A stretch of 24,158 bases of DNA from positions 1-24,158 of the IMG/VR virus record IMGVR_UViG_3300023184_000510. One strand, 5' to 3'. A program made the translations under genes and the position numbers. This DNA is from a virus. Shown in pieces: positions 1 through 21,193 of the stretch. Each line of letters starts with the position of its first letter. Position 1 is the stretch's first letter. Under the pieces are notes generated by a model, which made no database searches, had not been told where the DNA came from, and saw only the letters and a program-made list of their open reading frames with translations.

Positions 1-57
1 ATAAACAATTTTATCTTCTAATACTACTTTGTCTTGTTCAAAGATCTTTTCTTTCAA
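1..57 (-). CDS. Partial 5' end of a further leftward gene, product unknown
   Basis: The last 57 bases on the minus strand stay open to the window edge from a TTG codon at 57-55 and read MKEKIFEQDKVVLEDKIVY (19 residues). The frame overlaps the 3' end of the oxygenase at 38-745 by 20 bases, like other overlaps in this run, and a G-rich stretch (GGGGG) lies about 10 bases upstream as a possible ribosome binding site. The composition is protein-like and resembles the short strand-rich lead-in of the neighbouring oxygenases, but 19 residues are too few to assign a family. The TTG start is an inference. Confidence 0.35.
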   Translation of the reverse strand, partial: MKEKIFEQDKVVLEDKIVY

Positions 58-745
58 TGCTCTTAACCCCCGACTCCCTCATTACTTTCCATTCTTCAAT
101 TTCTTCAGCTTGAGCTTCTCTAATTTTTTTAAGGTCTTCTTCCCATTTTGCTTTTATTTCATCCGTATAGATAGAATCTGCATTATCCCAAAATGAACCT
201 AGTGTATATCTTTCTCCAGAATCTACGGTTGTAACCTTGTGCTCATTACCAAAACCTCCATCAAAAATTGCAAGCATTCCTATTTCGGGTTTGATTTCAA
301 TATCAAAATTTTTAAATTTAAGTAACCCTCCTGTAAAATTATCATTTAAATAAATAAATGATGCGTATTTACTTTTAGAAAATGGGGTTGGGTTACCTTC
401 TGAATCTGTATTATCTGAATGATAACTGGCATAAGAACCCTCAATCCATTTTTGAGCATGAAATGTAATTTCAGTTAGTTCTCTCCCAAATGCTTTTTCC
501 GAAATTAATTTAACTTTATCTCTAAGTTTATTAAAATAATCTGCTTCTAGCCCTAGTTTTATTAACTCTTGATCAAAAGGGAAAAATCCTTTTGCATATG
601 ATTCATAAAATGATATTGGGTTCCAGGTTATTCTTCCAGACTGATCGCAGTCGTCAAGATATTTTATTACAGCTGAACATTCTTCTGGAGTCATAAAATT
701 TTTAATTACAAAAACATCATCTTTTAAATTTATAACATCATTCAT
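38..745 (-). CDS. 2OG-Fe(II) oxygenase, prolyl-4-hydroxylase-like
   Basis: A 235-residue protein of the Fe(II)/2-oxoglutarate dioxygenase superfamily, which couples 2OG decarboxylation to hydroxylation of a substrate. The double-stranded beta-helix core carries the iron triad H109-x-D111 (YHSDN) and H169 (NEHKV), and R179 in GERYT as the likely 2OG carboxylate ligand. YLNDNFTGG at about 132-140 is the typical strand preceding the core. Residues 195-235 form a highly charged helical tail (Lys/Glu rich) that the paralogues lack. The start ATG overlaps the stop of the upstream oxygenase gene by 8 bases and has no good Shine-Dalgarno site, so translation is probably coupled. The substrate is not readable from sequence; context suggests a protein side chain, perhaps Pro in a tail protein. 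Confidence 0.85.
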   Translation of the reverse strand: MNDVINLKDDVFVIKNFMTPEECSAVIKYLDDCDQSGRITWNPISFYESYAKGFFPFDQELIKLGLEADYFNKLRDKVKLISEKAFGRELTEITFHAQKWIEGSYASYHSDNTDSEGNPTPFSKSKYASFIYLNDNFTGGLLKFKNFDIEIKPEIGMLAIFDGGFGNEHKVTTVDSGERYTLGSFWDNADSIYTDEIKAKWEEDLKKIREAQAEEIEEWKVMRESGVKSIERKDL

Positions 746-1424
746 TATTTTGTTTACCTAACTTATCAATTGTCCAAAAAAATGGGGAGGTATATCTGCA
801 ACCACTTATAACTGGTCTAACCCCATGAATATAATTCATATCTCCTGGGAAAAAATATACTCCACCCTTTTTTGGCTTAAATTGAATTGATTGATTTGGA
901 AAAAATAATTCTCCACCTTCATAATCATCATTTAAGTAAAATATTGTAGAGAGGTCATACCAGGGGAAGTCGTTTGGGGTTCCTGCTGACGGTCCGCTAT
1001 GCAGTTCCTTGTCTGCGTGTGGCACCTGCAGGCTTCCTGTAGGCCACCTTACAAGGGCTGGCCATGTAGGGTTTGCTTCTACGTTAAAAGCTTTTTCAAT
1101 TATTGGCTTTAGTCTATCTATAATTTTATGTAACATTACATTAATTTCTGGATCTATTTTTTCTAATGTATCGGTTGTTGCAACTCGGTCTTGCCAAATT
1201 CTATGGTCGTATACACAAACCCCAGCTTCATTAAAATGAGATTCGGTTATATCCCATATTGTATTATTAGATATTTTGCCGTAAAGAAAATCTATTTCTT
1301 CCTGTGTTAAAAAATTTTCAATTTCATGAATATGCTCTGGGGATTGTCCAAAGTATCCTGATGGCGTAATTGATTTTTTTTGTGTATTACTACCCATTAT
1401 ATTACCTTGATTTACTGGCTTCAT
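738..1424 (-). CDS. 2OG-Fe(II) oxygenase, prolyl-4-hydroxylase-like
   Basis: A 228-residue Fe(II)/2OG dioxygenase. The metal triad is H136-x-D138 (VPHADK) and H200 (YIHGV), with R210 in GCRYT as the 2OG-binding arginine. FYLNDDYEGGELFF at 162-175 is the hallmark of P4H-type enzymes found in many phages. About 30 residues precede the first strand. The first ATG was chosen because AAGGGAG lies 7 bases upstream; an in-frame ATG at residue 10 has a weaker site. The 3' end overlaps the next oxygenase gene by 8 bases. A 74-base gap upstream carries a possible -10 element, so this pair may have its own promoter within the leftward run. Substrate unknown. Confidence 0.87.
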   Translation of the reverse strand: MKPVNQGNIMGSNTQKKSITPSGYFGQSPEHIHEIENFLTQEEIDFLYGKISNNTIWDITESHFNEAGVCVYDHRIWQDRVATTDTLEKIDPEINVMLHKIIDRLKPIIEKAFNVEANPTWPALVRWPTGSLQVPHADKELHSGPSAGTPNDFPWYDLSTIFYLNDDYEGGELFFPNQSIQFKPKKGGVYFFPGDMNYIHGVRPVISGCRYTSPFFWTIDKLGKQNNE

Positions 1425-1498: not shown

Positions 1499-2203
1499 CT
1501 ATTCATTTACCGTCAATTTAATTGCTTTAACTTCATGTTCTCCAATAATATTGCCATTTTGATCCATTGCTCTTCTGTAAAAATCATTCCACTTACCCTT
1601 AGATTGATCTTCTGTTATTATTTGTCTATATTCTAAAATATCTATTTCTGGTTGATTTTTATCCAACTCCTCACAAGAAGTATATGTAATACTTGAGTTT
1701 TGCATTTCTGTTAAAGAAATTGGCAATATTGCAATCACTGGTGTGTTAGCCTTTATGGTTATAACTTGATTTGGCTTAGTAACTTTCCATGAGCATGGGA
1801 ATGATCCTTTAAAAAATGATGTAGACACTACAGAAAAAAATGGTTCCGCCCCTTCAATAAATTGATTTGGAACAGGCATACCTAAAAGACTTAAATTTTT
1901 ATCTGTTCTAAAAATTAATCCTGTTCGAAAATTTATTGTTCCTTGTTTTGTAGCAGAGTCAGCCCAGTTGGAGCCGCTTAATATTTTTACACTTTCTGGA
2001 TCATTATTTATTTGACCATCCCAGATAAAAGATATGTCTTCTGGAAATGAAATTGACCAGCCCAATTGGTTGGCTTGTGTTACTGGAAGGCAATGATATA
2101 CATGCTTAGTTTGTTCTTTATCCATCCAGTCTCTATTTATTTTAAGTGGTTGAATATTAGCACTAAAATCTCCTCCTGCTTTTGCAACAAATATTTCATA
2201 CAT
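1499..2203 (-). CDS. DUF6065-like protein, copy 2 of a tandem pair
   Basis: A 234-residue protein that I recognise, from memory of the family pattern, as DUF6065-like: an N-terminal NRDWMD motif (23-28), a Cys-Leu-Pro step (about 40-42), ANQLGWSISFP (46-56), FIWDG (61-65), then a VPNQFIEGAEPFFSVVSTSF core and an AILPISL strand. The function of the family is unknown. No signal peptide or membrane segment is seen and the fold looks all-beta. It overlaps the paralogue upstream by 8 bases and has a GAGG site about 9 bases before its ATG. It sits between P4H-like oxygenase genes, so a role in the same modification pathway is plausible but inferred. Confidence 0.68.
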   Translation of the reverse strand: MYEIFVAKAGGDFSANIQPLKINRDWMDKEQTKHVYHCLPVTQANQLGWSISFPEDISFIWDGQINNDPESVKILSGSNWADSATKQGTINFRTGLIFRTDKNLSLLGMPVPNQFIEGAEPFFSVVSTSFFKGSFPCSWKVTKPNQVITIKANTPVIAILPISLTEMQNSSITYTSCEELDKNQPEIDILEYRQIITEDQSKGKWNDFYRRAMDQNGNIIGEHEVKAIKLTVNE

Positions 2204-2906
2204 CAGTATTTTCCTCTACAACACTTAATCTTATTGATTTAACTTCATGTGTACCAATTTTGTTTCCTAAATGATCTACTCCATCTCGATAAAAATTAGA
2301 CCATCCTCCTGATAAATTAATTTCTCTAATTTTTTTTGAATACTCTTCTCCGTTAAAAGGCATTTTTTCCATTGTAGAAGTATTTTTAAATATAATTGAT
2401 GAATTATTAATATTGTTTAAAGACATTGGCACTATTGATACAAATGGCGTATTTGCTTTAATTGTTATTGGGACATTTGCTCTAGTTATTCTCCATGCAG
2501 CTGGCAGTGGTGCGCTAAAAAAAGAAGTTGAAATACTTGCTGTAAAAGCTGTTGCTCCGTCAATAAATTGATTGGGGACTGGCATTATTACAATAGTGGT
2601 ATCTTCTTTTGTTTTTAATAGAATACCTGTTTCAAAACTTATTGTTGCATTTCCCCTTGCTGGCGAACAATATTTATTACCTTCAAGAATTTTTACATGG
2701 TCTGCAGAATGGTCGGATATGCCATCCCAAATAAATGTAATGTCTTCTGGAAATGAAAGTCCCCAGCCTAATTGATTTGTTAGGCTAACGGGAAAACATT
2801 TATATGCATGTGCTTTATATGTTTCATCCATCCAGTCTCTGTTTACAGATAGGGGCTTGATTATTGCTGAATTTTCTCCAACTCTATAAGCTATTATTTC
2901 ATTCAT
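2196..2906 (-). CDS. DUF6065-like protein, copy 1 of a tandem pair
   Basis: A 236-residue paralogue of the gene immediately downstream. It shares NRDWMD (22-27), NQLGWGLSFPEDITFIWDG-type spacing, MPVPNQFIDGA, STSFF, an IVPMSL strand and the C-terminal pattern NFYR.G.D..GN.IG.HEVKSI.L.V. The pair evidently arose by tandem duplication and has since diverged substantially. AAAGGT lies about 7 bases before the ATG. No catalytic motif of a known enzyme class can be named. The two proteins could act as a heterodimer or on different substrates; this is speculation from tandem retention. Confidence 0.68.
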   Translation of the reverse strand: MNEIIAYRVGENSAIIKPLSVNRDWMDETYKAHAYKCFPVSLTNQLGWGLSFPEDITFIWDGISDHSADHVKILEGNKYCSPARGNATISFETGILLKTKEDTTIVIMPVPNQFIDGATAFTASISTSFFSAPLPAAWRITRANVPITIKANTPFVSIVPMSLNNINNSSIIFKNTSTMEKMPFNGEEYSKKIREINLSGGWSNFYRDGVDHLGNKIGTHEVKSIRLSVVEENTDV

Positions 2907-2920
2907 AATTTTACCTTTAT

Positions 2921-3589
2921 TTAATTTACAAAAAGCTCTCTATATTTCTTTTCTATTTCACGATATTCTGGTGTATGTGGGGCTGCGTGCCAGTCTAGCA
3001 TAGTTACCAAAGAATATTTTTTTCCACTTCTAACTGGCATTGCTGCATGTGAATAAATAAATGAAGATGGAAATATATACAGGTCTCCCTTTTTTGCTTT
3101 AATTGGAAGGTCTAGTTTATCAAAGTATAACTCTCCGCCCTCATAATCATCATTTAAATATCCTACAAGTGAAACTGTTGCTATATAAGAATATCCATGA
3201 TCAGAGTGTACTTTAAAATGTTGACCTGGACCATATTTAATTAAATTCATAGCTTCCATATAGTTCATTACTACGCCATGCTTTGAACAATAGTCTTGAA
3301 TTGCTGGTTGCATGGCATCATAACAATCTTGCCAAATTTCATCTAGCGCTATTTTTTGTGGAATTTTGCCTGTTGGATCATCTGTTAATTTTCTTAATTT
3401 AACATCTGAGCAGTCTCTGTATTGCAACATTTCTGTTTTAAAACCAACAGTAGCGGGAACCCATCTAGTATCCTCATCTGCTTCATCTTTTAAAACCTTT
3501 TCAGCTCTAGGAATAATTTTTAATTCTTCAGGTAAACAATTTCTATAAACTAAGATTCCTGGGGCTACTACTTCTACACTTGTATACAT
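2921..3589 (-). CDS. 2OG-Fe(II) oxygenase, prolyl-4-hydroxylase-like with Lys as 2OG ligand
   Basis: A 222-residue dioxygenase. The triad is H128-x-D130 (VHSDHG) and H181 (YSHAAM). The position that is Arg in most neighbours is Lys (K190/K191 in SGKKYS), as in true prolyl-4-hydroxylases, where Lys binds the 2OG carboxylate. YLNDDYEGGELYF at 144-156 is canonical. This makes it the best candidate in the window for a genuine peptidyl-proline 4-hydroxylase. AAAGG about 7 bases upstream supports the ATG. It lies 14 bases upstream of the DUF6065-like pair and 19 bases downstream of the Asp-hydroxylase-like gene, within one apparent operon. Confidence 0.88.
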   Translation of the reverse strand: MYTSVEVVAPGILVYRNCLPEELKIIPRAEKVLKDEADEDTRWVPATVGFKTEMLQYRDCSDVKLRKLTDDPTGKIPQKIALDEIWQDCYDAMQPAIQDYCSKHGVVMNYMEAMNLIKYGPGQHFKVHSDHGYSYIATVSLVGYLNDDYEGGELYFDKLDLPIKAKKGDLYIFPSSFIYSHAAMPVRSGKKYSLVTMLDWHAAPHTPEYREIEKKYRELFVN

Positions 3590-3608
3590 TAAATGCCTTT
3601 CATTTCTA

Positions 3609-4181
3609 TTATTTTACCATACTATTTGGTAAAATGTCAATAATTAAATGTACCCTATTTAAATTAGTTGGATTTGAAACTGAATGGGGTAAAACATTAT
3701 TAATCTCATAGCAAACCCCTTCTTTCATATTAATTGTATTGTCTTTAACGGTAAATAAAATTTCCTCATTAGTTATTATTGGAATATGGCACCTTCTAGC
3801 AAAATTTAAAAAAGAACCTCCATCAACATGCTTTCTAATGCTAGTATTTGACATCATTTTAATAAACTCTACTCTCATTATTTTGCCATCATAAAAATAT
3901 TCTAATTGTTTATAAATATTACTAAGCTCTTCTTGTGCAGCTGTGTTTTTTAACTCATACCTTTTTTTAATTATTGCTTTATTCCCTGGCTCCCAATCAT
4001 AGGATGATTGTAAAATAGGGTAACATTCTGTATTTTTATGAGTATAGGCATTGTCTTGTCTTCCAGTATCTAAAAACCATTCTGTATCATATAGTAAAAT
4101 TTCTTTTTTAATATTAGATATATCAAAGCTATCTCTTTGTATAATAGTCCATGAACTATTTTTTTTCAATTGATTTGACAT
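3609..4181 (-). CDS. Aspartyl/asparaginyl beta-hydroxylase-like dioxygenase
   Basis: A 190-residue protein with the layout of the Asp/Asn beta-hydroxylase domain (PF05118 type). In numbering from the chosen start, H118-x-D120 (KHVDGG) is followed by RRCHIP (about 129-134), a strand LFTV, a Met-x-x-Gly turn (MKEG), H166 in LPHSVSNP and R176 in RVHLIID. HxD, the distal His and the Arg are the expected Fe(II) and 2OG ligands. The start at 4181 is preferred over an in-frame ATG five codons upstream (4196) because GAGG lies 9 bases before it; the upstream ATG has no site. The gene overlaps the sulfotransferase by 26 bases. It may hydroxylate Asp/Asn/His of a virion protein, or a small molecule; the substrate is unknown. 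Confidence 0.78.
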   Translation of the reverse strand: MSNQLKKNSSWTIIQRDSFDISNIKKEILLYDTEWFLDTGRQDNAYTHKNTECYPILQSSYDWEPGNKAIIKKRYELKNTAAQEELSNIYKQLEYFYDGKIMRVEFIKMMSNTSIRKHVDGGSFLNFARRCHIPIITNEEILFTVKDNTINMKEGVCYEINNVLPHSVSNPTNLNRVHLIIDILPNSMVK

Positions 4182-4860
4182 AATTATAAACCTCATAATC
4201 TACTAAATTCATTTCTTTAATTCTTTTAATTTGATCTTCATTAATTTCTATTTTTATTTTATGAGATTGATTAGCTTTATCAGAATTTTTAAAAATATTA
4301 AATCCAAATTCTTCTTTTATTGCACCTGAAAAATCTTCTTTAAATTTATTAAGATTCTCTATTGTATAGGCATTGATTCCCTCTAATGATTTTTTTATAT
4401 CATTAAATTCTAAAGAATAATTTTCTATGTACCAGCCATGTGCAACTCTATGAAGTTGACTTGTTAAATTTAAATTAAATTTATCAATGTTTATAGATCC
4501 TGTTAAAAATTTTGATTGCATATTACTTTGTATTTCAGACTGCTGACCCCATAGCCAATTACTTAATTTATATTCAGCTTCCTCTTTAGTTCTTATTTGT
4601 CCTGTTGTATAATTAAAATAACTAATAAACCTTTCAACTGGATCTCTTAAAACAGTAAATACTTGTGGAGATTTCATTTGATCAATTGGCATTCTGCCAA
4701 AATGACCTATTACAAATTTAGAATCAGAGATTTCTTTTGTATCTATAAATGTTCTATTTGATGCAAAATGCTTTATACCATTTGCAAGTAAATTAGGAAT
4801 TACATTGTTCCTAATATACACTCCAGATGTTCTTGGAATGTGCAAATGGTATATAGACAT
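4156..4860 (-). CDS. PAPS-dependent sulfotransferase-like protein
   Basis: A 234-residue protein with both cofactor motifs of the sulfotransferase superfamily (Sulfotransfer_2 type, as in heparan sulfate O-sulfotransferases). The 5'-phosphosulfate loop is HIPRTSG at 7-13, and the 3'-phosphate-binding motif is VLRDPVERFISYF at 70-82 with the conserved Arg and Ser. VIGHFGRMP at 50-58 is typical of the region between them. The enzyme would transfer sulfate from PAPS to a hydroxyl (sugar, hydroxylated side chain or Tyr). AAGGG lies 8 bases upstream of the ATG, inside the end of the Hint-domain gene one base away. A sulfotransferase next to hydroxylases and a Pro-rich virion protein suggests sequential hydroxylation and sulfation, which is inference. 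Confidence 0.82.
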   Translation of the reverse strand: MSIYHLHIPRTSGVYIRNNVIPNLLANGIKHFASNRTFIDTKEISDSKFVIGHFGRMPIDQMKSPQVFTVLRDPVERFISYFNYTTGQIRTKEEAEYKLSNWLWGQQSEIQSNMQSKFLTGSINIDKFNLNLTSQLHRVAHGWYIENYSLEFNDIKKSLEGINAYTIENLNKFKEDFSGAIKEEFGFNIFKNSDKANQSHKIKIEINEDQIKRIKEMNLVDYEVYNYVKSIEKK

Positions 4861-4861
4861 A

Positions 4862-6187
4862 CTAGAAGCCCTTTTTATTGTGAACTACTAGTCCTCCTGC
4901 AATAATGATATCCACTGGAAGAGCATCAACCTGGTAAACAGATCTTTCTTCATCAATTGTATCAATATAAACAACAACGTCTTCGTAAAAAGCATGAGTA
5001 TCATTGTTAAACTTCATCAAAGAATCTCCTACTTCTACAGTACCTGTTGTAATAAACATCCAGGTATTTCCTCTTTTTACAAGAATTGTTTGCTCTAAAG
5101 AAAATCTTTCATTTTCATTTTTATTAAAATAAACTGTAATATCTTTTTTAGATTCAATAATATTTGTAACATATGTTGGCTTTAATGCAATATCTGTTAA
5201 AGCTGGCGCCGTCCAAGTATACGGATCTGAGCTTGCTTCATCAATAAGCTCATTCCAATTTGCTGCCCAAATTGCATCTCCAACAAGCAGGTGCTTAGCC
5301 ATTTTCCATGAAACTGTTCCATCTAATCCTATAACAGCAATTAATGTGTCTTGATCAATACAGAAAAATGGTGGGGAAAAGAATACTGGTGGGGCAAAGA
5401 ACCCTGGCGGATTAAAGAACCCTGGTGGATTAAAGAACCCTGGTGGATTAAAGAACCCTGGTGGGGAAAAGAACCCTGGCGGATTAAAGAACCCTGGTGG
5501 GGCAAAAAATCCTGGTGGGGAAAAGAACCCTGGCGGCGCAAAGAAAGCTGGTGGAGAAAAGAATGACGGCGGAAAGAATGGGGCTAGTGTTGTAATAGTA
5601 GCCGTTACTGCTGCCAAAGATGTTCCGTTTGCATTAATTGCATAAATAGAATAGTTTTGTGACGTATTTGCAACTTCAGTAAATACTGAGGGTGATGTTG
5701 CATTTGTACGTGTTGGGCTTTGTACCGTATCAGATGAAACAATAGTATAAGATGTTATTGCCGATCCTCCAGTAGCTGGTGCTGACCAAGAAACGCTGTC
5801 CTGGTTTGCAACAGTTGAAACTGCTGAAGGTGAAATTGGAGCTTGTGGAACTGTGGTTGCAGTAATAGATGCACTTGCTACAGATGCATTTCCCGTTCCA
5901 ACTGCATTTGTTCCTGTTACTGTAAATGTATAAGCTGTGGCTGATTGCAATCCAGTTACAACAATTGGTGAAGATGCTCCAGTTGCGGTGTATCCACCTG
6001 GTGATGATGTTACAGTAAAGGATGTTGCTGCAGCTCCAGAAGTATCTGGTGTAAAAGCAACTGATGCTGATCCATTATTATATGGTCTTGAGGTGCCTAC
6101 ATTTGTTGCTACTGGTGATAATGGTGCTTTTGGTTGAAGAAAATCGTTTGCTGCTTGAGATTTTCTTCCTACTTTTCTTATTGCCAT
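4862..6187 (-). CDS. Fn3 x2, PPGFF-repeat and C-terminal Hint-domain virion protein
   Basis: A 441-residue modular protein. Residues about 21-113 and 114-201 are two fibronectin type III-like domains (SYTIVSS, YTFTVTGTNAVG patterns), common in phage tail proteins. Residues 202-275 are about twelve hexapeptides [S/A/N]PP[G/A/V]FF. C276 directly after the repeat starts a Hint (intein/hedgehog-like) domain: CIDQDTLIAVIG block A, LLVGDAIWA, EVGDSLM, and GGLVVHNKKGF with the terminal His436-Asn437. The residue after Asn is Lys, not Cys/Ser/Thr, and the usual block-B His seems to be Gln366. Self-cleavage rather than splicing is therefore the more likely activity, if any. AAAGGAG precedes the ATG. 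The gene follows the fibre genes and immediately precedes the modifying enzymes. Confidence 0.83.
   Translation of the reverse strand: MAIRKVGRKSQAANDFLQPKAPLSPVATNVGTSRPYNNGSASVAFTPDTSGAAATSFTVTSSPGGYTATGASSPIVVTGLQSATAYTFTVTGTNAVGTGNASVASASITATTVPQAPISPSAVSTVANQDSVSWSAPATGGSAITSYTIVSSDTVQSPTRTNATSPSVFTEVANTSQNYSIYAINANGTSLAAVTATITTLAPFFPPSFFSPPAFFAPPGFFSPPGFFAPPGFFNPPGFFSPPGFFNPPGFFNPPGFFNPPGFFAPPVFFSPPFFCIDQDTLIAVIGLDGTVSWKMAKHLLVGDAIWAANWNELIDEASSDPYTWTAPALTDIALKPTYVTNIIESKKDITVYFNKNENERFSLEQTILVKRGNTWMFITTGTVEVGDSLMKFNNDTHAFYEDVVVYIDTIDEERSVYQVDALPVDIIIAGGLVVHNKKGF
5363..5578 (-). repeat. 18-bp tandem repeat encoding [S/A/N]PPGFF hexapeptides
   Basis: About twelve in-frame 18-bp units (core, read on the plus strand, aaccctggtggattaaag) encode alternating Pro-Pro-Gly and Phe-Phe. 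Several central units are identical at DNA level, which implies recent expansion or homogenisation. The outermost units are degenerate (PPSFF, PPAFF, PPVFF, PPFF). The repeat ends exactly at the Hint-domain cysteine. Confidence 0.9.
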
Positions 6188-6215: not shown

Positions 6216-9071
6216 TTACGCTGTTAGATCTCCATAGATAACCCATGTGTTAGCTGCTCTCTTAAATAGTGTACATGATGACCATGTAGTTCTCAATTTG
6301 AGACCTGGTGTTCCATTAACTGTTACTGTTCCATCTACTGGTGCAATTGTAACTTGTCCTGCGCCAGTTTGTAGTATGTCAATTGCTGTTCCGACTGGAT
6401 ATGGAACTGATGCATTTGTTGGAATTGTAAGTGTTATTGCAGTTGCTGAGCCCATTTCAATTAATGAATCTCTTTCTGAAAGTGAAGATAGTGTATATCC
6501 TGCTGTTTTTGCAATAATTGGTGTTCTAGAAACAACACCTTCTGCTGTTTGTGCACCGTCTGTAAATTGTATTCCAGCTGCCGCAACAGTAACTACGCCT
6601 GTAAATGTAGGTGTTGCAATTGTTGGAGAAGTAATAGATGCTCTTGAAGTATCTACTGGATGAACGTGATCAACACGAGCATATTTTGCAGAAGTTCCCA
6701 CTGCCGCAGTTCCGTTCATTGGTGAAGTTGTTGATGCGGCTTGTCCAATAACAAATGCTGTTGTTGCAATTTGTGTTGTATTAATATCTGCCACAGCAGT
6801 TGGTGCTAGTGGAACTCCTGCTAATGTTGGGCTAGTTGCAAACACTAGTGAGCCAGATCCTGTTTCATCTGTTAATGTAGAAGCAAGATTTGCGCTAGAT
6901 GCTGTTCCAAGGAATGTTGCCATACCAGTTGAAAGAGCTGTTATTCCAGTTCCTCCATTTGCTACTGCTAATGTGCCTGTGACTGCAGATGCTGGTAAAT
7001 TTGTAAATGTATTAGATGCTCCACTTATACTCTTATTTGTAAGAGTATCAGTTGTATCTTTTCCAACTAAAGTGTCTGTGGCTGCTGGAAGTGTGAGTAC
7101 ACCAGATGCAACACCTGATGCTTGAAGTTTTGTACTTCCGCTTGTTGCACCTGAATGATTCATACCATTTGATATAGTTGGAAGTGTAATTGATGAGCCT
7201 GTTGGAATTGTAACTGTACCTGTAAATGTAGGTGAAGCTGTTGGTGCTTTTAGGCCAATGCTAGTTGTAAGTGTTGTAGATAGGGATGCATCATTTCCAA
7301 GAGCAGTTGCAATTTCTCCAAGAGTATCTAGAGTTGAACCTGCGCTACCTACAAGAGCTGCTACTTCTGCACGAACAAATGCTGTTGTAGCAATTTGTGT
7401 TGTATTAGTTGCTGCTGATGCAGTTGGAGCGGTAGGTGTTCCAGTTAGTGCTGGTGAAGCAAGAGATGCTTTGAGTCCCAATGCTGTATCCAAACCTGAA
7501 ATCTTTGAAGTTGCAATTTCTGCAGATGCGTTAATATCTGCATCTAGAATTGCACCATTTGCAATTTTATCTGATGTAATTGCTGAATCAGCAATATCTG
7601 CTGTTGCAATTGTTCCATCTACAATCATAGATGAAGTTACTGTACCCAATGGTAGAGTTACTGTACCTGTAAATGTTGGTGAATTAAGATTTGCTTTTAA
7701 TGCCAGTCCTGAGTTAACGGTTGCAGTTAATGCAAGTGCTGATGTATCAGCAATTCCATGTACGCTTGTTGTGGCTGTGTTGTGTGTAGCAATTTTTGTG
7801 TCTGCTGCTGTTGCTGCTGCTGAAGTTGCTGCAGACTGCGCTGCGGTAGCCTTAGTGCTAGCATCTGTTGCTGCTGCTGCAATTGCTGCTGTTTGAGCTG
7901 CATCTGCTTTAGTAGTAGCATCTGTTGCGGCTGAAGAAATTGCTTGTGATTTAGCTGTTGCAATATCTGTAGTAAGTGATGTACTAAGAGCCGTATCTGC
8001 TGATGTTGCAAATGACTGTGCTGCAGTTTGAGCTGCATTAGCCTTAGATGTTGCATCGTTTGCTGCAGTTGCAACACCATTACCTATTGATGTTGCAACG
8101 CTTGTTGCAAAATTAGCATCATTTCCTAATGCTGCTGAAAGCTCATTAAGTGTATCAAGTGCTGATGGAGCTGAAGCAACAAGAGCTGCTACTTCTGCAC
8201 GAACAAATGCTGTTGTAGCAATTTGTGTTGTATTAGTTGCTGCTGATGCAGTTGGAGCTAAAGGAGTTCCTGTCAATGTTGGAGAAGCAAGTGGGGCTTT
8301 TGCATCCAATTGTGTTTGAACTGCGCTAGATGTTCCATTTAAATAATTAAGTTCTGCTGAAGTTGCTGTAACTGCATGAAGTTTAACCAAATCACCATTG
8401 ATTATTCCTGATGAATGAATTTGATTTAATTCTGTTGCTGTTGAAGACAAAACAACATTTTCATTAATTTTTGGCGATGTTAATGTTTTATTTGTGATTG
8501 TTTGAGCTTCATCTTTTAAAACAACATCTGATGTTACTCCTACTGTTAGTGTTCCAGCTGTGTCATTATAAGTAATTCCTACTCCAGTAGATGGGATTAA
8601 AGCTGCTCCAATTACATCTTGTACTGTTTCTGTAATATTTAATTCTGATGCTGGTACTTTTCCGTCTGAGCCAAGTGATGCAACACCTAGTATTGCTCCT
8701 CTATCAGTTACTGGAATAAAATCATTTGCTGTTGAATTACTTAGTGATGATACTTGTCCATCAACATAAGCTCTTGTTGCAACAACTGCTGAATCAACAT
8801 TAATGGTGATTGTATTTGCTCCGTCATTGTATGTCTTTGAAAGACCTGAACCCATAGTAAGGGCAGTATAGATAGCATCTTGGGAAATTTCACCAATTGC
8901 TGCTGCATCAGATGCAGCATAAGAAAGAGCTGTCCATGTATCTGTTCCATTACCAAATTTAAATTTATTTGTATCTGACTCTACGCCCATTTCGCCTGCG
9001 GCTAAAATTGGATTTACTGAGGTCCACTGTGAAGCTATTCCTCTTCTTACTTGAATTCTTACTGTTGACAT
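6216..9071 (-). CDS. Large tail-fibre protein with Mtd-like N-terminal module
   Basis: A 951-residue structural protein. Residues 1-54 (RIQVRRGIASQW, AGEMGVESDT, FKFGNGTDTW) match the N-terminal module widespread in phage receptor-binding proteins, including the major tropism determinant. The rest alternates beta-rich fibre repeats (SPxLTGTPxAPTAS, NTTQIATTAFV, three copies, two of them nearly identical), an Ala-rich 19-residue-type coiled-coil stretch around 340-450 (DATTKADAAQ units), a VANGGTGIT turn and a HVHP segment near 815. The C-terminus (YTLSSLSERDSLIEM, ITLTIP, GTAIDILQTGAGQVTI) is a common short-tail-fibre end. It probably forms a trimeric host-contacting fibre. AAGGGG sits 6 bases before the ATG. 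Confidence 0.85.
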   Translation of the reverse strand: MSTVRIQVRRGIASQWTSVNPILAAGEMGVESDTNKFKFGNGTDTWTALSYAASDAAAIGEISQDAIYTALTMGSGLSKTYNDGANTITINVDSAVVATRAYVDGQVSSLSNSTANDFIPVTDRGAILGVASLGSDGKVPASELNITETVQDVIGAALIPSTGVGITYNDTAGTLTVGVTSDVVLKDEAQTITNKTLTSPKINENVVLSSTATELNQIHSSGIINGDLVKLHAVTATSAELNYLNGTSSAVQTQLDAKAPLASPTLTGTPLAPTASAATNTTQIATTAFVRAEVAALVASAPSALDTLNELSAALGNDANFATSVATSIGNGVATAANDATSKANAAQTAAQSFATSADTALSTSLTTDIATAKSQAISSAATDATTKADAAQTAAIAAAATDASTKATAAQSAATSAAATAADTKIATHNTATTSVHGIADTSALALTATVNSGLALKANLNSPTFTGTVTLPLGTVTSSMIVDGTIATADIADSAITSDKIANGAILDADINASAEIATSKISGLDTALGLKASLASPALTGTPTAPTASAATNTTQIATTAFVRAEVAALVGSAGSTLDTLGEIATALGNDASLSTTLTTSIGLKAPTASPTFTGTVTIPTGSSITLPTISNGMNHSGATSGSTKLQASGVASGVLTLPAATDTLVGKDTTDTLTNKSISGASNTFTNLPASAVTGTLAVANGGTGITALSTGMATFLGTASSANLASTLTDETGSGSLVFATSPTLAGVPLAPTAVADINTTQIATTAFVIGQAASTTSPMNGTAAVGTSAKYARVDHVHPVDTSRASITSPTIATPTFTGVVTVAAAGIQFTDGAQTAEGVVSRTPIIAKTAGYTLSSLSERDSLIEMGSATAITLTIPTNASVPYPVGTAIDILQTGAGQVTIAPVDGTVTVNGTPGLKLRTTWSSCTLFKRAANTWVIYGDLTA
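7351..7430 (-). repeat. 80-bp exact direct repeat, copy A
   Basis: Identical over 80 bases to 8179-8258. It encodes APTASAATNTTQIATTAF and flanking residues of the fibre (about residues 548-574). Perfect identity in a low-identity surround points to gene conversion or recent duplication. Confidence 0.9.
8179..8258 (-). repeat. 80-bp exact direct repeat, copy B
   Basis: Second copy of the repeat at 7351-7430, encoding about residues 272-298 of the same 951-residue fibre protein. Recombination between the copies would delete 828 bases in frame. Confidence 0.9.
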
Positions 9072-11386: not shown

Positions 11387-11935
11387 TTACTTAAGTGCCG
11401 TTCTAATATATCTAGCTGTTACTGCTGTTGTTATTGGTGTGATTACTAAACTAATTATACCATTAGTGAATGTAAATGCGGTTGTACAAAGTGGTGTGTC
11501 TATGTTAGACACAATGTCTGATTCTGATACATAAACTGTAGAAGAGTCATGAATTGCAGTTATGTTTGAAAAATAATAATCTGATCCTCTGCTAATTTGA
11601 AGAGAATATTTAACTGTTCTATAATCTGCTGCTAAAAATGAATCAATTGTTGTTGGATTTTCAATGCCGTTAACTGTTAAATCATTATTTCCTTCTAGGC
11701 CAAGCAGTGCTTCTATTGTTGTGCCTTGATTAGATAATGTATCAACTGATGTTGATAAAGCATTTAATTTATATGTTAATGATGAAGAGTCAGTAGAATT
11801 AGTTACACCAACTACTGTTTCAAGTGCTTCAATTGCATCATTGGCATTTGCGTGTTGAGCCGCATGTCCTGATAATTCATCTGTTGCTGCTGGGTTAGAA
11901 AGATTATTTTTACTTGCTGGAAATGTTGTTGCCAT
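11387..11935 (-). CDS. Tail appendage protein with fibre-type C-terminal module
   Basis: A 182-residue structural protein. The N-terminus (FPASKNNLSNPAATDELSGH, then AAQHANANDAIEALETVVGV) is a recurrent motif in phage neck or tail-appendage proteins. A short helical linker follows. Residues about 100-182 are a beta-sandwich-like module (FLAADYRTVKYSLQISRG, YYFSNITAIHDSSTVYVSES) that resembles the C-terminus of the 603-residue fibre downstream. It has no enzymatic motif. AGGAGG stands 6 bases before the ATG and a TATAAT is visible upstream. Probably part of the tail-tip or fibre assembly; the exact position in the virion is unknown. Confidence 0.75.
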   Translation of the reverse strand: MATTFPASKNNLSNPAATDELSGHAAQHANANDAIEALETVVGVTNSTDSSSLTYKLNALSTSVDTLSNQGTTIEALLGLEGNNDLTVNGIENPTTIDSFLAADYRTVKYSLQISRGSDYYFSNITAIHDSSTVYVSESDIVSNIDTPLCTTAFTFTNGIISLVITPITTAVTARYIRTALK

Positions 11936-14818: not shown

Positions 14819-16753
14819 CTATGCTGATATATCTACAAGCTCGCAATTTCCATCAGAACTACATGCAAGCGTGGCAGATGGTGATGTCCCATCTTCTGTC
14901 TCATAAAAAGATAGATCTTCCCAACGAATATTGTTAGGCGTTTTTGCAACAAGTGTTTCATATTCTTCTTTTGAAACTTCCTGGTACGGAGCTTGCTTAT
15001 ATGTGTGATCGGAATGTGGCAAAAATGAAATACCAGATACTTCATCAAAATTCTTATACACCCAAGCGCCAACCTCCATCCATTCTTCTTCTTTGACAGA
15101 AACTGTAATTGAAGGTTTATGTTCACACCATGCACGTTGATAAACTAACCAAATATTTAAATGATCAATTGCTGTAAGGTCATTCCTAACAATTGCTCCG
15201 TCTGGAGCTTTAACGGGAAATGAAAATACATAAGTATCGTTTGGCTTCATTACATCATCTTCAACTGGAATGCCAACTTCTTTTAAAAATGTAGAAATTG
15301 GATCTCCTTTTGAACCTCTAACGGTTCTAATATAATATGGAGAATGCCACGGGTGCATTCCTGATGATACCCCAACTAATTGTGATACTGTTCCTGAAGG
15401 CTTTACACATGTAATGGCGGCAGATTCAGAAATTCCAATTTTTTCAGCCTCTTCTTTATTTACTTCTCTTGCTTTTTCACGTAATGTCATTAAAAATGAT
15501 TCAAGCATAACCAAATCTTCTTTCCCAGACATAAATTTATGACCAAACTGTCCTGTTAAAGAAACTCCCAACAACCTTTCTTCTTCTGTGTTATCTTTCC
15601 ATATTTTACGAATATATTTAAAATCTGTAAGCGTAGATTGCCATGTTCCAAGTATTGTTGCTAATTCTACTTTTCTTTCAATATCTTTCTTTGTATCATT
15701 TTCACGCAATACAACTTCGGAAAGATTACAAAATTGATAAGGCCTAAGAATAATTTCTGAGCAAGGGTTAGTTCCATAATGAATGCTTGGGTCCCTTCTT
15801 CCAAACTTTGCAGCCTGTGCTTGAGCTGCCGCAACATTATAAATTCCACGTTCTCCCGACTTTGAGTCATATAAAGATTTCCATTCTGCAATAAATTGCT
15901 CCATTTCTGGTTTACGTGAATAAGCAACAGAATTATTAGATAGTGCACGTTGTGGGCTTGCTTCCCACCAATTGCCTGATTTTGCTTGAGCCATTTCAAT
16001 GTCATTAATATTTGAAAGAGAAATCATTGCTGATCGTCTAACTCCACCGACAACAACAACCTCACCAATTTTGCACATAATGTCATGACACTCAATTGGC
16101 TTAAGATTTCTGCCTGCTGCATTTTTAAATTTAGCAATAGTAAAATCAAAAAGATTAATTAATGGCTGTGGACCAGAAGAACGACCACCCATTGTTTTTA
16201 ATCTTGCACCAGCCGTTCTAACTTTTGTTACATCAATTGCTGGAATGTGTCCTGTCCAAAGAAGAGCAAGTAATTCACGATATGCTTTAGCCCATCCTTG
16301 TTTTGAATCTTCAACTACAATAACAGTGTCTGATTTTTCAAGTTTTTCTGGAACGGCGGGAAGTTTATTAATGTACTTGTATTCTACTGAAAATCCAACA
16401 CCTGTTCCGCACATTAAAACATACATAGTTTCATCAAATGAACGAGGAGAATCTACTGGTAAAAATGCACAATTGTAACCCGCAACATTGTCTCTTTCTA
16501 GTGCTGCTCCTGATGTCATAACGGAACGCATTGAAGGCATTACATTTCGTTTAAATACAAACTCTTTTAATTCCGCAACAAGCTTTTCATTTGGAATATA
16601 ATTGTAATTTACCTTTAAATGGTTAGTCATAAAATTAAAATATCTATCTACTGTTTCTCCCCATGTTTCTCTTCGTGCTTCTACTTCTACCCATTTTGCA
16701 TATCTAGATAAAGCAATAAAGTTTTCATAAGGATTTTCAATAGTTTGTAACAT
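14819..16753 (-). CDS. nrdJ: Class II (adenosylcobalamin-dependent) ribonucleotide reductase, monomeric RTPR type
   Basis: A 644-residue reductase converting ribonucleotides to deoxyribonucleotides for phage DNA synthesis, using adenosylcobalamin to generate the thiyl radical and needing neither oxygen nor a second subunit. Key residues: C95 (GYNCAF) and C342 (QFCNLSE) as the active-site redox pair; C331-x-E333 with N329 (TNPCSEI) as radical cysteine and base; KPSGTVS at 451-457 as phosphate-binding segment; C631 and C637 (LACSSDGNCELV) as the C-terminal dithiol shuttle. Spacing between C331 and C342 equals that of C408/C419 in the Lactobacillus enzyme. It is shorter than the roughly 740-residue Lactobacillus enzyme, as phage versions often are. 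No start-proximal strong SD: AAGG lies 11 bases upstream. Confidence 0.93.
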   Translation of the reverse strand: MLQTIENPYENFIALSRYAKWVEVEARRETWGETVDRYFNFMTNHLKVNYNYIPNEKLVAELKEFVFKRNVMPSMRSVMTSGAALERDNVAGYNCAFLPVDSPRSFDETMYVLMCGTGVGFSVEYKYINKLPAVPEKLEKSDTVIVVEDSKQGWAKAYRELLALLWTGHIPAIDVTKVRTAGARLKTMGGRSSGPQPLINLFDFTIAKFKNAAGRNLKPIECHDIMCKIGEVVVVGGVRRSAMISLSNINDIEMAQAKSGNWWEASPQRALSNNSVAYSRKPEMEQFIAEWKSLYDSKSGERGIYNVAAAQAQAAKFGRRDPSIHYGTNPCSEIILRPYQFCNLSEVVLRENDTKKDIERKVELATILGTWQSTLTDFKYIRKIWKDNTEEERLLGVSLTGQFGHKFMSGKEDLVMLESFLMTLREKAREVNKEEAEKIGISESAAITCVKPSGTVSQLVGVSSGMHPWHSPYYIRTVRGSKGDPISTFLKEVGIPVEDDVMKPNDTYVFSFPVKAPDGAIVRNDLTAIDHLNIWLVYQRAWCEHKPSITVSVKEEEWMEVGAWVYKNFDEVSGISFLPHSDHTYKQAPYQEVSKEEYETLVAKTPNNIRWEDLSFYETEDGTSPSATLACSSDGNCELVDISA

Positions 16754-16954: not shown

Positions 16955-17494
16955 ATGGAGAATATAAAGCAACAGTTTAGCGATTTGATTCGTGACTGGA
17001 CAATAATAGCAGTAACAATGTTATTTTTGTTTGGATCCCCAGCAAATGCTTTAACTGTAAAACCTTTAGTGAAAACTGAAGCCCAATTAAAGCAAGAAGT
17101 CTTAGATAAGTTCAGTAATGAAAGTTACAGACCATCTGAGATGCTTACAGACGAAAAGTTAAAACAATTACTTGAGATTGTAGGATTCGAAGGAGCAGGC
17201 CTTAAGAAAGCTTGGTCAATAGCAAAGCGTGAATCTAATGGAAGACCGCTTGCGTATAATGGGAATAAGAAAACTGGAGATAGTTCTTACGGACTATTTC
17301 AAATTAATATGATTGGAGATCTTGGTCTTCAAAGACTTGAGAAATTTAATCTACAGAGTAACAAAGAGTTATTCGACCCAGTAACAAACGCTGAGATAAC
17401 GTATTATATGACTGATGGCGGTAATGATTGGTCAAGCTGGAAGGGTATGACCCCAAAAGCTAGGGAATGGCTATTGCTATTTCCAAAATCTTAA
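16955..17494 (+). CDS. Secreted lysozyme-like/lytic transglycosylase-like endolysin
   Basis: A 179-residue muralytic enzyme from the chosen start. Residues 1-32 look like a Sec signal peptide: a charged n-region, WTIIAVTMLFLFG and an Ala-x-Ala site (ANA-LTV, cleavage near 32). Residues about 77-179 have the SLT/lysozyme-like layout: catalytic Glu93 in AKRESNGRP, GDSSYGLFQIN at 108-118 and the WSSW strip at 159-162. It would cleave the glycan backbone of peptidoglycan. The start at 16955 is set by AGGAGG 8 bases upstream; ATG 16949 is too close to it and ATG 16826 lies upstream of the likely promoter. A signal peptide means export could use Sec, with the holin acting as timer or membrane depolariser. 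Confidence 0.83.
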   Translation: MENIKQQFSDLIRDWTIIAVTMLFLFGSPANALTVKPLVKTEAQLKQEVLDKFSNESYRPSEMLTDEKLKQLLEIVGFEGAGLKKAWSIAKRESNGRPLAYNGNKKTGDSSYGLFQINMIGDLGLQRLEKFNLQSNKELFDPVTNAEITYYMTDGGNDWSSWKGMTPKAREWLLLFPKS

Positions 17495-17507
17495 AAGTAG
17501 GGTGTGG

Positions 17508-17723
17508 ATGCAGAGAATACAGTACGTATCAAAATATCTGTCTCTTTCAAAAGAGGGCCTTGTTCCAGAGACTTTATGTCCCATGGATCAGGGTTCTCTT
17601 TTTGCCAATCAGGATGCTGATGAAAATATTTATTTTTATTGTTTATCTTGCAATTATAAAAAAATTGTTGGGCTTGAATTTTATGACAAAATTGTTAATT
17701 TGGTAAAATCTATTGTGCAATAA
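17508..17723 (+). CDS. Small Cys-containing phage protein, possible zinc ribbon
   Basis: A 71-residue protein with LCPMDQG (about 24-30) and YFYCLSCNYKKIVGL (about 43-57): one Cys followed by CxxC, plus Asp/His-type neighbours that could complete a metal site. I recall similar CPMD...YCLxCxYK...GL.FY proteins in actinophage-like genomes, function unknown. ATG 17508 is preferred to an in-frame GTG at 17502 because AGGG lies 5 bases upstream. It follows the endolysin stop by 13 bases, so it is co-transcribed with it. Confidence 0.68.
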   Translation: MQRIQYVSKYLSLSKEGLVPETLCPMDQGSLFANQDADENIYFYCLSCNYKKIVGLEFYDKIVNLVKSIVQ

Positions 17724-17733
17724 AGAACTTTGT

Positions 17734-17762
17734 TTGTGCAATATTGAGTCGGCAACTATTAT
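17734..17762 (+). promoter_or_regulatory. Weak candidate promoter before the 17810 gene
   Basis: TTGTGC (17734-17739), 17-base spacer, TATTAT (17757-17762). The -10 is 5/6, the -35 poor. It lies in the 86-base gap between two small genes. Confidence 0.28.
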
Positions 17763-17809
17763 AAAAACTGATTCATTAGGCAACACTATATTTTGGAATG
17801 AGGACAAAA

Positions 17810-18019
17810 ATGAATGAAGAAGAGGTAGCTCCTTCTGCTTTAGAAGATAATTTGCCTATGGTGACCTATATTATGCTTCATAGAATATATGATTTATTGA
17901 CGCTTATATCTAATAAAGTTGTTGGTGGCGATGATACTCAAAAAATGGTAGAATATCATGAGCAAGGGTTTTTATTAGGTCCAAACCCATCTTATAACAC
18001 AGGAGAACAAAATGAATAA
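17810..18019 (+). CDS. Small acidic protein of unknown function
   Basis: A 69-residue protein. An acidic N-terminus (MNEEEVAPSALEDN) is followed by an amphipathic helix around MVTYIMLHRIYDLLTLISNK and a polar tail. I do not recognise it. The ATG at 17810 is chosen over the in-frame ATG at 17798 because GAGG lies 7 bases upstream of it. It overlaps the next gene by 8 bases. Overlap, a good ribosome site and sequence composition support it as real. Confidence 0.68.
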   Translation: MNEEEVAPSALEDNLPMVTYIMLHRIYDLLTLISNKVVGGDDTQKMVEYHEQGFLLGPNPSYNTGEQNE

Positions 18020-18200
18020 AAAAGAAGCAATTGATTTAATGGTTTTAACATTTCAAAATCAAAATATGGTAATGGCAAAAGCTACAAAGCTTTCTGATGA
18101 AGAATCAGCAAAAGTTGTTGCTCAAGCACATGATGCAGTTTCATTTATAATGGAATATGTTTATGATGCTCTTGCTGCAGCCGATGTATTAAAAAATTAA
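18012..18200 (+). CDS. Small helical protein of unknown function
   Basis: A 62-residue, apparently all-helical protein (KKEAIDLMVLTFQNQNMVMA, then an Ala-rich second helix SFIMEYVYDALAAADVL). AGGAG lies 7 bases before the ATG and the gene overlaps the preceding one by 8 bases. It ends 10 bases before a triple-hairpin element with a terminator, so it closes the endolysin operon. No family recognised. Confidence 0.7.
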   Translation: MNKKEAIDLMVLTFQNQNMVMAKATKLSDEESAKVVAQAHDAVSFIMEYVYDALAAADVLKN

Positions 18201-18210
18201 TTAACTTAGA

Positions 18211-18254
18211 ATTAAGGTTGAGCGTTTACGTTCCCTTAATGTGCTTAGGCACAT
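18211..18254 (+). ncRNA. Two stacked hairpins preceding the terminator
   Basis: Hairpin 1: ATTAAGG (18211-18217), a TT bulge, GAGCG, loop TTTA, CGTTC, CCTTAAT (to 18240). Hairpin 2: ATGTGC-TTAG-GCACAT (18239-18254), sharing two bases with hairpin 1. Together with the terminator at 18256-18289 they form a compact 79-base structured unit. It may be the 3' end of the operon mRNA or a small RNA; the RNA call is inference. Confidence 0.45.
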
Positions 18255-18255
18255 C

Positions 18256-18289
18256 AAACCCCAATTAGATCCGCCTCTAATTGGGGTTT
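18256..18289 (+). terminator. Strong intrinsic-type terminator hairpin
   Basis: A perfect 14-bp stem, AAACCCCAATTAGA (18256-18269), loop TCCGCC, TCTAATTGGGGTTT (18276-18289). The end of the stem is U-rich on the plus strand (GGGGTTTG). It separates the endolysin operon from the modification island. Confidence 0.85.
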
Positions 18290-18295
18290 GTATTA

Positions 18296-18309
18296 TGATA
18301 AAATAGTAT
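18296..18309 (+). promoter_or_regulatory. Extended -10 giving a leaderless start at 18310
   Basis: TGATAAAAT (18296-18304) ends 5 bases before an ATG with no Shine-Dalgarno site. Transcription would begin at or next to the A of the start codon. Confidence 0.55.
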
Positions 18310-18453
18310 ATGGCAAAAAATCATTTTTCAAATACATTAAATAGTCCCTATTTTCGGATTGATGAAAATCAAAAACCTTGTTTTTGCGGTAAATTAACTT
18401 GCAGAATTGAAAATATCTTTAAAAAAATATTTAACAAGAATGGCAAAAAATGA
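18310..18453 (+). CDS. 47-aa Cys-rich small protein
   Basis: A 47-residue protein: MAKNHFSNTLNSPYFRIDEN, then QKPCFCGKLTCRIENIF and a Lys-rich tail. CxCx4C (C24, C26, C31 by my count) may bind metal. Three signs support it: its stop overlaps the methyltransferase start as ATGA (4-base overlap, coupling), an extended -10 box lies 5 bases before the ATG, and the composition matches the neighbours. Function unknown. Confidence 0.6.
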   Translation: MAKNHFSNTLNSPYFRIDENQKPCFCGKLTCRIENIFKKIFNKNGKK

Positions 18454-19154
18454 AAAATAATAATATTAGTTTTGAAGGAATTGAAGAAGAAGATTTTATC
18501 AATTTTAAATCTATAAGAAGAAAAGATTGTTTAAAGCAAGAAGAATTTGATAAAGAACATAATGTAACTACATTTATTGGTATAAGATTAGCTAAAGATG
18601 GTTCTGGAGAATATGTTCCTACTGCTATTGAAAATCGTGATAAATTTATAAATTCAGAAGGAATGCAAAATTCTGCTTTAGAACAAATTAATGCTGTAAA
18701 TAATTATTTACAAAATAATATTCCTGATATTTCAGAATATAATTTTATTGATCTTGGTGCGGGTTACGGAAAAGTAATTCTTTCTAGCTTGATATCTAAT
18801 GCTCCTTATAAATCTTATACTGCAATTGAAATTGATCCTAGTTTTTTTAATGTCTTAAAAAATAATATTGAACAATGTAATAAAAGAACTAGTTCTTGGC
18901 CTACTATAAATTTAATTAACCAGGATTTAAAGGACTATGTCTGTTTGCCAGAAAAAACCATATATTACTTCTTTAGATCTACTGATGGTGATATTTTTAG
19001 TGAATTTATATCTAAAAATAAAGAATTATTTATGAATAATAAAACAATTTTAGTTGATATTTGGCCTTCTTGTGGGTGGGTGGATGCGGTAGAGGATGTC
19101 TTTACTAGAGTCTATAGTAAAGACATGATTGGCATATATCAATCAAAAATATGA
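18450..19154 (+). CDS. SAM-dependent methyltransferase (class I)
   Basis: A 234-residue Rossmann-fold methyltransferase. Motif I is FIDLGAGYGK at 99-108, and motif II acidic residue E127 is in AIEIDPSF. INQDL near 156-160 supplies the motif III acid and YYFF at 172-175 follows on strand 4. The first 90 residues form a separate polar N-terminal region. GAGYGK...AIEIDPSF is reminiscent of Dot1-like or small protein and natural-product methyltransferases, but no DNA methyltransferase motif (NPPY or DPPY) is present, so DNA methylation is unlikely. The substrate is unknown. It is coupled by an ATGA overlap to the 47-residue protein and its stop TGA is part of the promoter of the next gene. Confidence 0.78.
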   Translation: MKNNNISFEGIEEEDFINFKSIRRKDCLKQEEFDKEHNVTTFIGIRLAKDGSGEYVPTAIENRDKFINSEGMQNSALEQINAVNNYLQNNIPDISEYNFIDLGAGYGKVILSSLISNAPYKSYTAIEIDPSFFNVLKNNIEQCNKRTSSWPTINLINQDLKDYVCLPEKTIYYFFRSTDGDIFSEFISKNKELFMNNKTILVDIWPSCGWVDAVEDVFTRVYSKDMIGIYQSKI

Positions 19155-19166
19155 TACAATTACAAT
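19152..19166 (+). promoter_or_regulatory. Extended -10 giving a leaderless start at 19167
   Basis: TGATACAAT (19152-19160) ends 6 bases before the oxygenase ATG; its TGA is the stop codon of the methyltransferase. No Shine-Dalgarno site is present. Confidence 0.6.
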
Positions 19167-19907: not shown

Positions 19908-19925
19908 TATATATAATATATAGTG
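19902..19925 (+). terminator. AT-rich hairpin at the end of the 19167 oxygenase gene
   Basis: CACTA...TAGTG inverted repeat with an AT-rich inner stem and a one-base bulge, overlapping the stop codon. It is weak as a terminator because no U-tract follows. It lies between convergent genes. Confidence 0.35.
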
Positions 19926-19975
19926 CAAAATTGAAGTGCGAAAAAAGTGCGGCGAAAGTAGAGACCCTTTAATAT

Positions 19976-20173: not shown

Positions 20174-20176
20174 TAA

Positions 20177-21183: not shown

Positions 21184-21193
21184 CCCCTTTATT

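Follow-up and report, generated by a model that had tools for sequence, protein, structure and literature searches.

Why would a tailed phage carry a series of predicted prolyl hydroxylase genes behind the gene for one of its own tail proteins? The question is raised by IMG/VR virus record IMGVR_UViG_3300023184_000510, all 24,158 bases of which were analyzed (hereafter, the window) and which we read as a tailed-phage fragment on the basis of its tail PHROGs. In its leftward gene run, a protein made of two FN3 domains, a 12-unit Pro-Pro-x-Phe-Phe array and a C-terminal Hint domain is accompanied by a sulfotransferase, an Asp/Asn beta-hydroxylase-like 2-oxoglutarate (2OG) enzyme, prolyl 4-hydroxylase (P4H)-like enzymes and two copies of DUF6065. 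We consider it probable that this run belongs to a widespread phage operon in which P4Hs hydroxylate prolines of the phage's own tail-repeat array, with DUF6065 as a near-constant helper.

The repeat protein and P4H genes form a conserved unit

We scanned IMG/VR with the amino-acid pattern PPGFFxPPGFF and found it correctly in frame within a repeat gene, with the same neighbors, in more than 110 further viral loci, most of which encode about 200 residues (the FN3 part) before the array and a variable end after it. Profile searches of these loci returned 366 P4H-like open reading frames (ORFs) and 92 DUF6065 ORFs. The conserved order is (tail fiber), FN3-(Pro-Pro-aromatic)n-variable C-terminus, zero to two variable genes, a P4H, DUF6065 and further P4Hs; we label the P4H slots relative to DUF6065, with U1 before it and D1 to D4 after it. 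Across 112 loci, P4Hs take up 291 of the 559 slots on the downstream side of the repeat gene versus 2 of approximately 300 on the upstream side. Both sides belong to the same loci, and the contrast thus controls internally for genomes that are rich in oxygenases throughout.

We also tested 25 repeat-bearing records that were picked because their fetched locus had few or no P4Hs. PF13640 was present in 21 and DUF6065 in 18; the four records lacking a P4H are fragments no longer than 13.5 kb, and among records of at least 14 kb the counts are 21/21 and 18/21. In a control set of 48 viral records, chosen by an arbitrary 16-mer and each 14 kb or longer, PF13640 occurred in 2 and DUF6065 in none (Fisher p = 9e-16 and 8e-14, respectively, against the repeat-bearing records). 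In the reverse direction, 66 of the 80 best-scoring DUF6065 loci include enough upstream sequence, and all 66 have a Pro-Pro-aromatic repeat protein there (the other 14 stop short); the sample is biased to close relatives by its selection on score. The repeat protein and the P4H genes are thus one conserved unit and not a one-off. Independent occurrence of enzymes and repeat protein, which a preliminary description of the window had named as the pattern that would speak against a functional tie, was seen in neither direction.

The unit was not found in the prokaryote genomes and deposited phages searched. Among 84,980 prokaryote species (one genome each), the PPGFF pattern gave five matches, none beside a P4H or DUF6065; four lie in low-complexity or shadow frames and one has no PPGFF open frame at all. 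These matches thus provide no host or prophage link, and the cassette itself was not found in the same set. The Hint protein alone, used as a seed against viral contigs, gave no match. Among deposited phages only Phage NCTB matched, via its Hint domain, with no Pro-Pro array or P4H in the 24 kb fetched. In that phage (positions 90182-114637) the Hint domain is fused to a collagen-like (Gly-X-Y) tail protein, and there is a separate small intein-domain gene.

Repeat class and cassette switch together

Relatives found via T183, a conserved upstream tail gene, revealed a second class of FN3-repeat-Hint protein with FTPFGF repeats and no Pro-Pro (the TPFG class, as opposed to the Pro-Pro, or PP, class). 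The TPFG cassette differs, with X213, a gene of 186-189 aa ("Cup"), two diverged DUF6065-like genes, X236 and a gene of 214-221 aa ("OxB"), and with one or two P4Hs at its far end only. "OxB" and "Cup" have no family match, and naming them 2OG enzymes would be guesswork based on His-rich motifs. A "DUFb" model was rejected as it cross-matches DUF6065 and does not discriminate. In a separate group of FTPFGF tail proteins (loci L384-L463), the cassette consists mostly of unnamed families (X213, X236 and the genes of 186-189 and 214-221 aa); besides diverged DUF6065 and an Asp/Asn beta-hydroxylase-like (AspH) enzyme, none has a convincing Pfam match.

We compared the two classes over the dereplicated repeat genes, 110 in all, that are followed by five or more genes. 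A P4H lies within the next three genes in 66 of 84 PP loci versus 4 of 26 TPFG loci, and DUF6065 lies within six genes in 63/84 versus 0/26, whereas X236 shows the opposite distribution (0/84 versus 12/26). In a tree of T183, the TPFG state appears in five separate places, and five changes are forced by well-supported branches. All five places have the TPFG cassette, and 40 of 41 PP loci fit the PP-cassette rule; the exception, L337, has P4Hs but no DUF6065 in the six genes scored, and its record (the contig of L051) has one. Repeat class and cassette have switched together at least five times independently.

Two repeat proteins in one genome share a repeat class

Two repeat proteins are present in 36 loci, and in all 36 (19/19 after dereplication; chance, ~5e-5) they belong to the same class. 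In 16 of the 19 pairs no similarity was found between the N-terminal parts, a few of which are cut by the contig edge. Array composition is also closer to that of the genome partner than to that of other genomes (cosine 0.68 versus 0.21; permutation p = 5e-5), including within the PP class (0.65 versus 0.29; permutation p = 5e-5). Pairs with nothing but the repeat in common are to be expected if each genome has a single repeat-specific enzyme set. In the fetched loci that show both, the distant second repeat protein lies across the T183 gene.

Recent gene conversion was rejected as the full cause of the matching arrays, since in many pairs identical hexapeptides are encoded by different codons; the pairs in L359, L323, L383, L374 and L435 share no hexapeptide that is identical in DNA. 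Gene conversion may account for pairs such as those in L330 and L376. The alternative that remains is exchange within the genome, with codons diverging afterward. Some second repeat proteins (L312:8791-, L343:8574- and L026:1069-) have an array followed by a Cys-rich tail, and the part before the array in L343 and L312 resembles a PASTA-type domain. In L343, genes that by eye resemble a methyltransferase, a radical-SAM enzyme and cystathionine gamma-synthase (17214-20498) directly follow the repeat gene, with P4H matches further along the record.

Several observations weigh against hydroxylation of the array by the cassette. Being adjacent, the repeat gene and cassette could travel as one DNA block without mutual action; repeat-free phages such as cyanophages also carry 2OG oxygenases; the two-copy genomes L328 and L340 have arrays of the same class that match poorly; and TPFG genomes are not free of P4Hs, one or two of which stand at the distal end of the cassette (a reading in which these genomes have none was rejected on this ground). 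The strongest competing explanation builds on the first two of these: a tail-tip hotspot would swap repeat gene and oxygenase block together, and the enzymes would target a host protein such as EF-Tu, the host surface or a small molecule. The P4Hs of Pseudomonas putida and Bacillus anthracis, close structural relatives of U1, are indeed recorded with EF-Tu in their entry titles. Exchange of a single segment, however, does not explain why the distant second repeat protein matches the cassette-side type in 36/36 cases, and DUF6065 was not found without a repeat protein wherever the locus was complete. We therefore regard linkage without action as unlikely, albeit the most serious of the alternatives.

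Cap type and the first downstream genes vary together

The C-terminal domain of the window's repeat protein is assigned to the Hint family by a profile match to the bacterial intein-like (BIL) domain 2LWY (8e-7). It has kept Cys1, which is present in at least 90% of alignment A3, and the terminal His-Asn. In block B, where L010 and L088 have TAEH or TKEH, its His is replaced by Gln (SLEQ), and the residues after His-Asn are Lys-Lys-Gly-Phe, with no Ser, Thr or Cys nucleophile. With the block-B His lost and no nucleophile after His-Asn, full splicing is not expected. The domain appears to be BIL-like at most, and it may serve in thioester formation or be purely structural. It shares Cys1 and the terminal His-Asn with BIL/Hint domains; unlike the usual BIL domain, it caps a repeat array and has lost the block-B His, and there are other phages whose cap lacks Cys1.

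The gene immediately downstream of the repeat gene encodes a sulfotransferase in 14 of 14 dereplicated loci with a CIDxDT...HN Hint cap and in 0 of 79 others. The family match (PF03567, 27.8 bits; cut-off, 22) and a 3'-phosphoadenosine-5'-phosphosulfate (PAPS)-binding HIPRTSG region, largely conserved in 19 sequences, support 4156-4860 as a predicted sulfotransferase. Its partner in most loci, the Asp-hydroxylase-like enzyme (PF05118, 55.2 bits; cut-off, 22.6), is absent in L138 and L141; its sole sequence match in the PDB is a weak one (4e-4) to L-proline cis-4-hydroxylase (4p7w). Other caps have other genes behind them: 140- and 80-aa genes with Cys-rich caps, and 179- and 199-aa genes with Cys-less Hint caps. 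In L009, L016, L048, L077, L096, L111 and L118, the caps start with KSVG or KSLG, without Cys1, and are followed by a 176- to 191-aa gene and a 192- to 199-aa gene with no clear family match. Because its presence tracks the Hint subclass, the sulfotransferase would seem to serve the cap rather than the array, although adjacency alone could tie the end of the repeat gene to a neighboring sulfotransferase through recombination.

These patterns bear on whether the cassette targets FN3 or C-terminal domains in the tail protein instead of its array. The dependence of the first downstream genes on C-terminal class is what such a target would produce, but the core P4H-DUF6065 set is constant across C-terminal classes and differs by repeat class, and FN3 domains are common to both repeat classes. 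As an account of the core enzymes, this explanation is improbable.

The preliminary description had proposed that P4Hs hydroxylate Pro-Pro-Gly and that the sulfotransferase then perhaps sulfates the new hydroxyl. P4H and sulfotransferase genes are both present and adjacent in the window, and its expectation that related genomes with a PPGFF-Hint gene carry P4Hs was borne out; its counterpart for the sulfotransferase failed outside one Hint-tail subclass. Most PPGFF loci with P4Hs have no sulfotransferase, and as the gene is not part of the core and adjoins a single Hint-tail subclass, sulfation of the hydroxylated repeat is unlikely. Nor can the X-Pro-Gly rule of animal enzymes be what ties enzymes to repeat, since the P4H-DUF6065 set is complete in loci with arrays that are poor in Gly or free of it (FFPPFFPP, FPPHFPPFF). 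The combined scheme is very hard to sustain.

U1 models as a protein prolyl hydroxylase

By between-locus best hits, the P4H slots are separate orthologous groups (U1, 23/23; D1, 14/16; D2, 22/27; D4, 20/29), and the 2OG ligand is slot-specific, being Lys in 91 of 97 U1 and Arg in 93 of 97 D1 sequences. The best matches of window gene 738-1424 are all D1 orthologues (up to 67% identity); D3 and D4 of the window would fall beyond the end of the record. In U1, the iron triad (H128, D130 and H181) is invariant in 23 orthologues (alignment A4), as is the 2OG ligand K191, a Lys as in collagen-type P4Hs. The nearest sequence relative is the B. anthracis P4H. A structure model of U1 (mean predicted local distance difference test [pLDDT] score, 89.5) has the P4H-type double-stranded beta-helix, and its nearest solved structures are prolyl hydroxylases (Z, 20.1 to 17), among them Trichoplax PHD, an algal P4H with (Ser-Pro)5, PHD2 with HIF peptides, P. 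putida P4H with EF-Tu and the PBCV-1 enzyme vCPH (Z, 17.6). With catalytic residues and fold that both fit, U1 is a predicted protein prolyl hydroxylase. Least probable of all is a metabolic role, in which the enzymes would yield free hydroxyproline or a natural product, with reprogramming of the host: phage 2OG genes are usually annotated as auxiliary metabolic genes (PMC9301287) and the AspH-like enzyme has its weak proline hydroxylase match, but U1 resembles enzymes that act on peptides or proteins, and the genes hold a fixed place behind a tail gene, with several paralogues in fixed order.

DUF6065 is a near-constant companion with a predicted dUTPase-like fold

DUF6065, overlooked in the preliminary description, is as conserved as the P4Hs in the cassette, with copies in most loci sharing approximately 50 to 60% identity with the window copy. 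Its structure model (pLDDT, 87) has a dUTPase-like beta-clip fold, and all 50 listed structural neighbors are dUTPases (best Z, 11.7; 2.7 Å over 116 residues). The invariant columns of alignment A1, read without a structure-based motif alignment, include no evident Asp/Tyr of motif III, one of the five catalytic motifs of dUTPases. DUF6065 was not found in 50,697 deposited phage records, and a literature search found no paper naming it. It is also present in a cellular genome, that of Caulobacter vibrioides, which was used as a control.

Gene layout of the window

The gene order and coordinates of the leftward run in the preliminary description hold, and its family assignments are upheld by Pfam (Table 1). 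The 1-base gap between repeat gene and sulfotransferase gene is confirmed (4862 versus 4860), and 8 of the 12 array units read PPGFF, in line with its statement that most contain Pro-Pro-Gly. The 26-base overlap between sulfotransferase and Asp-hydroxylase genes applies if the internal ATG at 4181 is used; from the first ATG the overlap is 41 bases. Given the tail-fiber genes and tail PHROGs upstream, we assign the repeat protein, by position, to a putative tail-tip or fiber module.

Table 1. Features of the window discussed in the text
Feature	Position	Strand	Basis
FN3-FN3-(PPxFF)12-Hint tail protein, 441 aa, presumed substrate	4862..6187	-	PF00041, 1e-7
PPxFF repeat array, 12 units, 8 = PPGFF	5363..5578	-	sequence
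Hint domain, C-terminal part of repeat protein	4865..5362	-	alignment A3, PDB profile search
Predicted sulfotransferase, variable module	4156..4860	-	PF03567, 3e-6; PHROG 3347
Asp/Asn beta-hydroxylase-like 2OG enzyme	3609..4196	-	PF05118, 9e-15
P4H slot U1	2921..3589	-	PF13640, 2e-13
DUF6065, cassette core	2196..2906	-	PF19541, 2e-30
DUF6065, second copy	1499..2203	-	PF19541, 3.5e-32
P4H slot D1, Arg 2OG ligand	738..1424	-	PF13640 (1.5e-8, 1.5e-7 for D1/D2 pair)
P4H slot D2	38..745	-	PF13640; best matches D2/D3, 57% identity
Tail fiber, Mtd_N-type N-terminus, upstream neighbor of repeat gene	6216..9071	-	PF18454, tail-fiber PHROGs, synteny
T183, conserved 183-aa tail gene, control marker	11387..11935	-	alignment A2, tree

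A second oxygenase region lies at the opposite end of the window (18450-22751), with a methyltransferase-like gene (18450+) and four 2OG-type genes (19167+, 20177-, 21194- and 22035-) that are distant from the cassette slots (~25 to 43% identity). A ribonucleotide-reductase-like gene (14819-16753) adjoins the tail module on the same strand.

Discussion

We propose a model in which the operon of the window would make and finish a tail appendage protein consisting of two FN3 domains, a Pro-Pro-aromatic array and a C-terminal cap, here a Hint domain. U1 and D1 to D4, each with its own orthologues and place, would hydroxylate prolines of the array, and those of any other protein of the same genome that bears the same array, after translation and before or during tail assembly, using 2OG and iron of the host. 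The several paralogues may act at different sites, such as the first or second Pro or the start and end of the array. DUF6065, a protein of predicted dUTPase fold, would be a near-constant helper, and the genes directly behind the repeat gene (sulfotransferase and Asp-hydroxylase in the window) would serve the particular cap. The effect would probably be to stiffen the array or change host contact. Hydroxyproline stiffens or stabilizes proline-rich segments in collagen and plant extensins, and the simplest benefit may therefore be a stiff, solvent-friendly stalk between FN3 base and cap. The analysis itself shows gene content and order, slot orthology, catalytic residues, the predicted fold of U1, the joint switching of repeat and cassette and the repeat matching within genomes; enzyme action on the array, the target prolines, the location in the virion and the effect of the modification are what we infer here. 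More tentatively, and with slightly less confidence than an even chance would warrant, we envisage a modular, repeat-matched hydroxylation code, in which each lineage has one type of proline-aromatic repeat, common to several of its tail proteins, and a dedicated multi-enzyme cassette that acts in trans on all of these and is swapped whole along with the repeat, yielding tail fibers of post-translationally finished, collagen- or extensin-like material.

A virus-encoded P4H with the same fold as U1 is known from PBCV-1 (vCPH, PDB 5c5t; Eriksson et al. 1999). PBCV-1 is a eukaryotic algal virus, unlike the tailed phages here. To our knowledge, its enzyme is not joined in an operon by further paralogues and a repeat protein matched to them. 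In mimivirus, a giant virus, the hydroxylase/glycosyltransferase L230 hydroxylates lysines of the virus's own Gly-X-Y collagen, a case of a viral enzyme modifying a repetitive protein of the same virus. The proposed phage system differs in having Pro-Pro-aromatic arrays, several P4H paralogues and DUF6065, and in belonging to tailed phages; the array is not Gly-X-Y collagen but X-Pro-Pro-x-Phe-Phe or FFPP. Cyanophages and other phages of aquatic habitats have 2OG-Fe(II) oxygenases (PHROG 61) that belong to the same superfamily as the cassette enzymes and resemble EGLN3 (PMC12774648); unlike the cassette, they are annotated as auxiliary genes with no named substrate. Hydroxylation by viruses of their own Pro-rich or collagen-like proteins is already known from PBCV-1 and mimivirus. 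In our literature searches, neither a counterpart in phages nor repeat-cassette matching was found described, nor was any role for DUF6065.

As to hosts, the WhiB regulator is described as occurring in Actinobacteria and in phages that infect them, and nowhere else (PMC10611076). It occurs in 13 of 32 repeat-bearing records, and in 10 of the 11 that reach 105 kb or more, and the hosts of this WhiB-bearing group are therefore likely actinobacterial. That the cassette was not found in the prokaryote genomes, nor DUF6065 in deposited phages, is consistent with lytic, uncultured phages.

A survey calls the viral use of prolyl 4-hydroxylase cryptic (PMC9301287). In aquatic phages, 2OG oxygenases count as one of the commoner kinds of "auxiliary" gene, generally without a known substrate, and genomics here names a candidate substrate and candidate residues. 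Uncultured phages of lakes and seas, hundreds of them, have a tail protein with repeated proline-and-phenylalanine motifs beside a hydroxylase set that changes whenever the repeat changes. This suggests that the phages finish their own tails by chemical means, in much the way that animals finish collagen. If so, DUF6065 would gain its first context and fold, and tailed phages would hydroxylate their own tail repeats through a dedicated operon, a form of virion maturation that we otherwise know of only in large eukaryotic viruses.

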